Shown in pieces: positions 40,903 through 60,867 of a stretch of DNA of 64,000 nucleotides (the first letter of the stretch is position 1; the number at the start of each line of letters is the position of its first letter). Source of the DNA: Peptococcaceae bacterium BRH_c4b (GTDB taxonomy: Bacteria; Bacillota; Desulfotomaculia; Desulfotomaculales; Desulfocucumaceae); the NCBI GenBank assembly GCA_000961595.1, contig LADO01000045.1:1-64000 (forward strand), in the 5' to 3' direction. Made by a program: the position numbers and the translations under genes. A model generated the notes under the pieces. That model searched no databases. It saw only the letters and a list, made by a program, of their open reading frames with translations, and was not told the DNA's origin.

Positions 40903-40990
40903 CAGTCCAAAGTCTAAAGTCTAAAGTCCAAAGTCTCAGGTTTCCAGCTTTCGTTGACTTTTGACCTTCGACTTTCGACATTAGACTTTT
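40903..40990. repeat. Heptamer hairpin array R3 between gatA and gatB
   Basis: The left arm is five heptamers of form AGTCYAA. The right arm is the complementary set TTGACTT, TTGACCT, TCGACTT, TCGACAT and TAGACTT. The arms pair imperfectly. An R4 element follows directly. Confidence 0.8.
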
Positions 40991-41075
40991 ATATATTTCG
41001 AGACGACAAACCGTTCTCTCATGCTGACTTCTGTTGTTTTCGCCGGTTCTCTTATACTGACTACTGACTAGTTAC
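40991..41075 (-). repeat. R4 repeat (AGTCAGx heptamer type)
   Basis: On the minus strand ACTAGTCAGTAGTCAG, then GAGAACCGGCGAAAACAACAG and GAGAGAACGGTTTGTCGTCTCG, then the R3 array. The same blocks recur at 48457-48530 and 60605-60790. Confidence 0.7.
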
Positions 41076-45151: not shown

Positions 45152-45229
45152 TAGTCTAAAGTCCAAAGTCCAAGGTCAAAAGTCATCTAAAAGGACTTTA
45201 GACATTTGACTTTGGACATTTGACTCTTA
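45152..45229. repeat. Heptamer hairpin array R3 between amj and ligA
   Basis: Left: AGTCTAA, AGTCCAA, AGTCCAA, GGTCAAA, AGTCATC. Right: GACTTTA, GACATTT, GACTTTG, GACATTT, GACTCTT. The arms are complementary over most of their length. It abuts the amj stop codon at 45230. Confidence 0.85.
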
Positions 45230-46066: not shown

Positions 46067-46104
46067 TTTCCCTCCGATAATTAACTGTAGTGTGTCCAAA
46101 ATAA

Positions 46105-46212
46105 CAGTCTAAGGTCCAAAGTCTAAGGTCAAAAGTCACTTAAAAAAGCTTTAGACATTCGACTTGCGCCTACGGCTTTAGACTTTAGACTTTTGACTTT
46201 TGACTTTTACTT
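46105..46212. repeat. Heptamer hairpin array R3 between pcrA and amj
   Basis: Left heptamers AGTCTAA, GGTCCAA, AGTCTAA, GGTCAAA, AGTCACT. Right heptamers TTTAGAC, ATTCGAC, then after a 13-base block TTTAGAC twice and TTTTGAC twice. It begins 15 bases after the pcrA stop. Confidence 0.85.
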
Positions 46213-59432: not shown

Positions 59433-59449
59433 AAAAAACAACCTCCTTT

Positions 59450-59474
59450 GAGTCAGGGGACGGTTCTCTGACTC
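59450..59474. repeat. R2 unit between purM and purN
   Basis: GAGTCAG and CTGACTC are inverted around GGGACGGTTCT. Same type as the larger hairpin at 60827-60867. Confidence 0.75.
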
Positions 59475-59521
59475 ATTCAACCCCCATACCAGATCATTTA
59501 GCGGCAATGCAGAAAAAAAGT

Positions 59522-60604: not shown

Positions 60605-60790
60605 TTACTATTCAGGTAGTCAGAATTCTGAATGCCTCGAGAATATGCTTCCAGCAATTTACTAACCTCTTGCAAAAGAAATTTTGTTTCGTAAATATCA
60701 CCGTATCCAAGATCCTTCGTACTATTCAGGTATTCCTGACTCCTGTTATTTTCGCCGGTTCTTTCATGCTGACTCCTGACTCCTGAGTAG
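60605..60790 (-). repeat. R4 element with internal cargo
   Basis: The outer ends are ACTACTCAGGAGTCAGGAGT (near 60790, minus strand) and GAATAGT at 60607. A second R4-like end (TACTATTCAGGTATTCCTGA, near 60718) lies inside. Between the internal end and 60616 sits the four-helix-bundle remnant. GAACCGGCGAAAATAACAGG matches the copy at 40991. Confidence 0.75.
60616..60720 (-). pseudogene. Remnant of a four-helix-bundle (S23/IVP-like) protein
   Basis: The minus strand encodes TKDLGYGDIYETKFLLQEV followed by SKLLEAYSRGIQNSD, which resembles the C-terminal helix pair of four-helix-bundle proteins of the S23 intervening-sequence family (the LGY(I)..E...LL.E...L(L)...RG pattern). The N-terminal half is missing and the fragment has no start of its own. 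It lies between R4 ends. The family assignment is from recalled pattern and needs a profile search. Confidence 0.5.
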
Positions 60791-60826
60791 TTATGATTTC
60801 CGAACAAAATTCACTATCCCAGGAGG

Positions 60827-60867
60827 GCTGGAGTGAGTCAGAGAACCGTCCCCTGACTCACTCCAGC
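60827..60867. repeat. R2 hairpin overlapping the end of purF
   Basis: GCTGGAGTGAGTCAG and CTGACTCACTCCAGC pair perfectly over 15 bases around AGAACCGTCCC. The purF stop TGA (60858-60860) and its last two codons lie in the right arm. Confidence 0.9.

Follow-up and report, generated by a model that had tools for sequence, protein, structure and literature searches.

The closest described systems are the intervening sequences (IVSs) of 23S rRNA genes, which can carry a gene of the S23/IVP family of four-helix-bundle proteins. In Coxiella, the IVS is 428-444 nt long, has inverted ends and is excised by RNase III (PMC4990558). The function and origin of the 23S IVS and of the S23/IVP family have been called unclear (PMC4990558); a transposition origin was proposed by Burgin in 1990, and in 1993 Ralph and McClelland put forward a mobile element whose ORF is needed (PMC4990558 cites both). 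Heptamer repeats have also been described, among them the TAACTGA repeats of Beggiatoaceae and cyanobacteria, for which a transfer mechanism was not evident (PMC4679880), and the GGGAATC repeats of Xanthomonas, which generally show no association with mobile elements (PMC4692102). In the literature that we covered, mainly open-access journal papers, we found neither a description of a heptamer build of IVS ends nor a prior link between heptamer arrays, IVP proteins and mobility. Here we analysed a 64,000-nucleotide stretch of DNA (the window) from Peptococcaceae bacterium BRH_c4b (genome G000), which contains a repeat named R4. An earlier note on this DNA had proposed that R4 and a second repeat, R3, are cargo-less forms of an element that once carried a four-helix-bundle gene. 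This idea is correct for R4, and its reach is wider than proposed. Sequence comparison shows that R4 is a miniature that arose by deletion from a mobile element about 0.42 kb long, the full form of which is composed of a heptamer array, an IVP gene and an inverted array.

The R4 copy of the window (L282) is 184 bp long and lies on the minus strand at 60606-60789, in the spacer between purF and purM and not within a 23S rRNA gene; its ends were defined by BLAST with the R4 end consensuses. The two R4 ends that had been predicted were located, with GGAGTCA in 7-bp phase at both. The 5' arm (60769-60789, minus strand) is a heptamer array, TACTCAGGAGTCAGGAGTCAG, with the same heptamer as the arms of a clade of IVP loci (L072, L074, L071, L224 and L218). 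It is followed on the same strand by a remnant of the IVP gene start, ATGAAAGAACCGGCGAAAA (60749-60767), which encodes MKEPAK and shows, over 36 nt, 89% identity to the 5' arm and gene start of L072; intact genes of the L072 clade start with MREPAK, MRQPAK or MREPAR. Next come an internal R4-end-like piece, CAGGAGTCAGGAATACCTGAATAGTA (60720-60745, minus strand), similar to the R4 end in L072 and situated at the deletion junction, and a C-terminal remnant of the IVP gene, TKDLGYGDIYETKFLLQEVSKLLEAYSRGIQNSDY (60617-60719, minus strand; alignment A1), the final codons of which fall within the 3' arm, ATTCAGAATTCTGACTACCTGAATAGTA (60606-60633, minus strand). Positions 60720-60735 and 60606-60621 form a direct repeat. 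The 3' arm is inverted with respect to the 5' arm, and the two pair in the predicted fold, so that complementary termini surround the ORF remnant, as they do intact elements when assessed by flank complementarity. This fold is mildly stable (z=-1.94 for the whole stretch), those of a 111-nt miniature (z=-3.73) and of the full L218 element (z=-2.84) being more so. GTAAC at the 3' junction (60605-60609, minus strand) and ATAAC at 60790-60794 are a candidate degraded 5-bp target duplication.

The purF-purM spacers of five relatives of the same family (G002, G003, G004, G006 and G007) are 77-142 bp long and are devoid of R4, so that the element was either gained in the window genome or lost in the relatives. 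Gain seems likelier, given the filled and empty sites found on plasmids (see below). In two of these spacers, from two species of one other genus of the family (L235 in G007 and L237 in G006), we observed other heptamer-like arrays (GGGAATC-like and GGTTATT), as if the site had been struck repeatedly by other lineages. The 3' end of purF is also overlapped by a hairpin repeat of another kind, GAGTCAGAGAACCGTCCCCTGACTC (60825-60867), which recurs in inverted form just past purM (59449-59484).

The enclosed fragment had been taken for the C-terminus of an S23/IVP protein, and a profile search had been suggested. The peptide alone, STKDLGYGDIYETKFLLQEVSKLLEAYSRGIQNSDY, had no match in Pfam or NCBIfam, and hence lies below the curated cut-offs of PF05635 and TIGR02436; with an IVP HMM that we built from intact proteins, it was the top match, though a weak one (E=0.26), among the 1469 peptides of the window. 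The DNA resolved the matter. Over a length of 123 nt, the remnant shares 92.7% identity (E=3e-46) with an intact IVP gene, that of L072, a locus of genome G302, which belongs to another family. The L072 gene encodes a protein of 121 aa (MREPAKTFEDLLVWQKAH...LTKDLGYGDISETTLLLQEVSKLLEAYSRGILNSDY; PF05635, E=6e-36) and itself has R4 ends. A longer remnant in the window genome (L001, G000:C7), 88% identical to another R4 copy, matched both TIGR02436 and PF05635 (52 bits for a cut-off of 33.8, E=2e-13), so the profile search succeeded with a sister copy and not with the fragment. Because the DNA match extends to both the body and the start of the L072 gene, the window fragment is the C-terminal helix of an S23/IVP gene, as proposed, together with N-terminal codons that had been overlooked. 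Only a partial IVP gene was found in the window genome, with no active source. In L072, the 3' heptamer array also encodes the end of the intact gene (ILNSDY-stop; reverse complement, about 1822-1842), such that gene and element overlap at their ends.

We then considered intact IVP genes. All PF05635 loci of the window genome's family were bordered by 7-bp arrays on at least one side, with different heptamers (TTAGCTG in L049, CCAGAAT in L050 and L051, GGAGTCA-type in L053; in L052 on the 3' side only). A wider sample was assembled from a 398-genome phylum set and 80 GTDB loci from many phyla, including Methanophagales archaea, Patescibacteria, Bacteroidota and Proteobacteria, which together provided 151 distinct PF05635 genes. 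When the upstream and downstream 300 bp were compared, the flanks were complementary (score of at least 15) in 73% of these genes, with a median score of 18, as compared with 1.1% of 898 mismatched pairs and 0/131 windows taken 900-1200 bp away. The remaining 27% fell under the threshold, so that inverted heptamer flanks are a strong tendency and not a law. Tandem-repeat scores of at least 10 were nearly confined to period 7 and its double (flank counts of 31/68 and 36/68 in the phylum set, 34/77 and 40/80 in the GTDB set), periods 8, 9 and 11 being rare, and arms contained a median of 4.1-4.4 heptamer copies. A minority of loci had arms of period 11, 8 or 9 (L082, L106, L109; L062, L147, L193, L199; L200). 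The full element, of 423 bp, carries the IVP gene alone and encodes no transposase, integrase or nuclease. No IVP match was found in the phage collection. In substance, neither outcome that the note had named as refuting came about: a match to the family was found, though not with the fragment alone, and intact members usually have heptamer flanks. Most sampled genes of the family sit in IVP elements, which are widespread among bacteria and were found in archaea as well.

Evidence for mobility was obtained from cyanobacterial plasmids, where single sites were seen in both filled and empty states and where the gene and both arms arrive as one insert. In the cleanest pair, Trichormus (L218) is filled, reading AAAAA GTAAT [423 bp] GTAAT TAACAAA, and Nostoc linckia (L227) and Aulosira (L228) are empty, reading AAAAAGTAATTAACAAA, which reveals a perfect 5-bp duplication (GTAAT). 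This was the only perfect case. Comparison of L224 with L220/L345 gave a candidate duplication, TTCTA, with one base lost; in the pairs involving L217, L220, L222, L232 and L233, the insertion was visible and the duplication unreadable. Among R4 copies of the window genome, GTAAC flanked both sides at L267 only, and most had no clean 5-bp duplication. One plasmid site was found in three states: full (L232, L250), reduced to a gene-less heptamer miniature (L251) and empty (L245). In most plasmid pairs, the element lies at or close to the upstream stop codon; at the L220 site, the overlapping stop and start codons of the empty homologues (TAATG) are both preserved after insertion. Insertion is precise and leaves both neighbour genes intact. 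IVP elements were also observed inside CRISPR-cas operons (L217, L230, L231), in the orders cas10-IVP-cmr3 and cas6-IVP-cas4; the homologous operons of Picosynechococcus PCC 7002 and Pseudanabaena ABRG5-3 have no IVP gene.

The heptamer is specific to the protein lineage. IVP proteins more than about 80% identical shared the same heptamer, and those less than about 60% identical mostly had different ones; the Mantel correlation between heptamer and protein was 0.13 (gene-sense orientation only), a value equalled in 0/2000 permutations. GGAGTCA/GAATTCA is common to clostridial loci (L069, L071, L072, L074) and cyanobacterial plasmid loci (L218, L224, L233), the proteins of which are 74-79% identical. 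This is the clade closest to the R4 heptamer (similarity of 0.96 to L074). The prediction that intact genes would be flanked by AGTC heptamers was therefore borne out as to the inverted arrays, which are usual, and not as to the motif, AGTC-type heptamers being limited to this one protein clade. That the heptamer follows the protein lineage fits recognition of the one by the other without proving it, because shared descent would give the same pattern. The proposed extension to R3 found no support: no IVP clade in the sample had R3-like arms, the best similarity being 0.72 vs 0.96 for R4. R3 arrays (AGTCTAA-type heptamers, inverted, with the same 7-bp build as R4) are present in the window at 40904-40992, 45153-45226 and 46101-46205, and in L288 an R3 copy is nested within an R4.

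Among IVP genes with co-directional neighbours, 106 were in the sense and 10 in the antisense direction (p=2e-21). R4 copies, which are nearly all gene-less or truncated, showed the same trend (sense:antisense 19:2 in the window genome, p=2e-4; 11:3 in G286, p=0.06), ORF strands being taken from the longest open frame, a crude method. The presence of the bias in gene-less copies means that IVP expression cannot be its sole cause; it may reflect either strand-biased insertion or selection against antisense copies, and would not be expected for a plain DNA transposon. Nine of the sampled IVP loci were inside 23S rRNA genes, including L127/L128 and L083/L108, which are inserted at the H45 region and have degenerate heptamer arms. 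This shows that a 23S IVS with an S23 gene is an IVP element located in rRNA.

What the protein does was approached through its structure and conservation. IVP genes had dN/dS values of about 0.05-0.2 (pairs with measurable dS), indicative of purifying selection; a protein that is conserved while its genomic site changes presumably serves the element. Its gene, the only one that the element carries, may be the autonomous or maintenance part that the note proposed, although the cutting step is more probably owed to an outside enzyme. An AlphaFold model (pLDDT 96.8) matched, with Foldseek, XCC0516 (2gsc, E=2e-7), 2rld, and then Avd (4dwl) and the complex of Avd with the reverse transcriptase (RT) of a diversity-generating retroelement (DGR; 8ub7), the last two with TM scores of about 0.8 and E values of 0.1-0.3. 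Sequence search also found 2gsc (E=2e-32), and the Avd profile NF033474 gave 26.6-29.8 bits, under its cut-off of 80. The solved relatives XCC0516 and Avd are pentamers, and perhaps each subunit binds one heptamer.

The resemblance to Avd, the partner of the DGR RT, raises the main rival explanation, which is that the element moves through RNA: the Avd-like IVP protein would bind the hairpin of the transcript, an RT acting in trans (of a group II intron, a DGR or another source) would copy it into DNA, and the copy would be inserted, 23S IVSs arising alike. The strong sense orientation, even in gene-less copies, and the location of elements in rRNA and operons are in its favor, as is the higher frequency of RT genes in IVP-positive genomes (35/56 vs 149/342 in IVP-negative ones, Fisher p=0.009, genome size being uncontrolled). 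However, RVT_1 matches were undetectable in 21/56 IVP-positive genomes, among them G311 (seven IVP matches) and G063 (five), and this modest co-occurrence led us to reject an RT as a required partner. The element itself contains no RT, and none was present among the neighbour genes listed for the annotated plasmid copies. Furthermore, arm mismatches were G.U in 359 cases vs A.C in 386; since there is no excess of G.U, the arms do not seem to be kept as RNA stems and look like matching DNA sites. The 5-bp duplication also suggests staggered DNA cutting. We therefore favor DNA ends bound by the IVP protein and acted on by a cutting enzyme, and regard the RNA route as rather unlikely.

A second alternative, that the arrays are ordinary short tandem repeats with a regulatory or G-quadruplex role in which IVP genes land by chance, derives its appeal from the numerous gene-less heptamer repeats that have been so described (PMC4679880, PMC4692102). 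It is very improbable, because empty sites have no arrays and gene and arms form one insert, inverted arms match each other and not other loci, arm sequence tracks protein lineage across phyla, and the miniatures contain gene pieces. At least some of the published repeats may in fact belong to IVP elements. In Dokdonella immobilis, the IVP gene L159, which has GGGATTC/GGGAATC arms and is closely related to XCC0516 of X. campestris (E=1e-35), lies between accB-like and accC-like genes; the genome contains 193 matches to GGGANTCGGGANTC vs 1 in the control, many of them gene-less plus/minus pairs about 40-150 bp apart. Through Dokdonella, the sequences probably tie the GGGAATC repeats of Xanthomonas to IVP elements. 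No IVP element of the sample had TAACTGA or GGGGAYT arms.

That R4 hairpins are cargo-less forms of a gene-bearing element was confirmed by their composition, since the miniatures are built of gene pieces. In the window genome, GGAGTCAGGAGTC occurred 16 times vs 0 for a reversed-pattern control, and BLAST with one R4 copy found 64 pieces, grouped into about 39 places. The commonest gene-less R4 core, ATGAGAGAAC GGTTTATCGTCT CGGGGCATTCTGAATTCTGAC, corresponds to the gene start, a stretch coding for AVYRL and the C-terminus; similarly, the gene-less type-A core (ATGAGAGAAC/GGTTTATCGTCT/CGGGGCATTCTGAATTCTG) is composed of three segments of the intact IVP gene. The common cargo-less hairpin is thus three IVP gene pieces joined by deletions, and in L072 one miniature stands in tandem with the intact element. 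The least credible alternative, that an unrelated repeat captured an IVP gene, now decayed, and that R4 hairpins do not stem from IVP elements, would accommodate the peptide's lack of a profile match and the gene-less look of many R4 copies, but not the gene-derived type-A core or the R4 ends of the intact L072 gene. The miniature core was found in 5/398 sampled phylum genomes, from four families (25 copies in the window genome, 8 in G118, 2 in G254, 1 in G286 and 1 in G302; reversed control 0), and a relaxed search gave 28 matches in G286. R4 is multi-copy, has inverted ends and is an internal-deletion derivative of a larger element, which are traits of a MITE. Many R4 copies of the window genome (L262, L265, L271, L272, L280 and others) contain a second dispersed repeat (CCCTGAAAATAAGTTTAGGG...GTCATCCTGAGCGTTAGCGAAGGATCTTGGATTCTTCACTTCGTTCAGAATGACA...), forming composite elements.

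We consider it probable that R4 is a miniature of the 0.42-kb IVP element, that the IVP protein binds its own arrays, that an outside enzyme performs insertion, and that miniatures move in trans. The protein would bind its own element's heptamer arrays and join both ends; an enzyme from the cell or from another element would cut the target with a 5-bp stagger and insert the element; gene-less copies that keep the arms would be moved in trans by the IVP protein and spread as MITE-like hairpins; and insertions would survive chiefly in intercistronic spacers or rRNA loops, in which the hairpin of the transcript can be tolerated or else removed by RNase III, a fate known from 23S IVSs. If this is true, each IVP protein should bind its own heptamer, and arms alone should be mobile in the presence of IVP. 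More tentatively, and with somewhat less than an even chance of being right, these elements may form a transposase-less class, in bacteria and archaea, in which an IVP pentamer is the sole element-encoded mobility factor, recognises its private arrays, brings the ends together and recruits a host enzyme of wide occurrence; the joint drift of heptamer and protein would then be a lineage-specific self-recognition code, and 23S IVSs and many orphan heptamers would be its products. One element class would explain 23S IVSs, the S23/IVP family and probably the GGGAATC repeats. IVP elements are, moreover, a common source of hairpins within operons (purF-purM, sufA-like/sufB, cas10-cmr3, accB-accC) and could affect expression.

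Compared with known systems, the 23S IVSs of Coxiella, Leptospira and others are already described, and what appears to be new is a class of mobile elements that end in heptamer arrays and lack a transposase, for which we found no precedent in the papers covered. The elements resemble 23S IVSs in gene family, size (428-444 nt vs 423 bp for L218) and complementary termini, and the 23S IVSs of our sample also have heptamer arms. The known IVSs are described in rRNA genes; the present elements lie mostly between protein genes, are accompanied by gene-less derivatives in multiple copies, and provide empty sites as well as a duplication of 5 bp. With Avd of DGRs (4dwl, 8ub7) they share a four-helix-bundle fold, the sequence match being weak and under the cut-off; unlike DGRs, they have no RT, template or variable repeat. 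MITE and REP-type elements are likewise multi-copy, short and intergenic, with inverted ends, and derive by internal deletion from a gene-bearing element, whereas the full-length IVP element has no transposase and its ends are tandem arrays of 7-bp period and variable sequence, not a fixed terminal inverted repeat. Finally, the orphan heptamers TAACTGA, GGGAATC (Xanthomonas) and GGGGA(T/C)T (Nostoc) also form 7-bp tandem arrays, mostly intergenic, with a patchy distribution that suggests horizontal transfer, but have been presented in print as regulatory or G4 repeats, without a known carrier. Taken together, 23S IVSs and some of the orphan heptamers seem to be variants of a single, hitherto unrecognised class of element.
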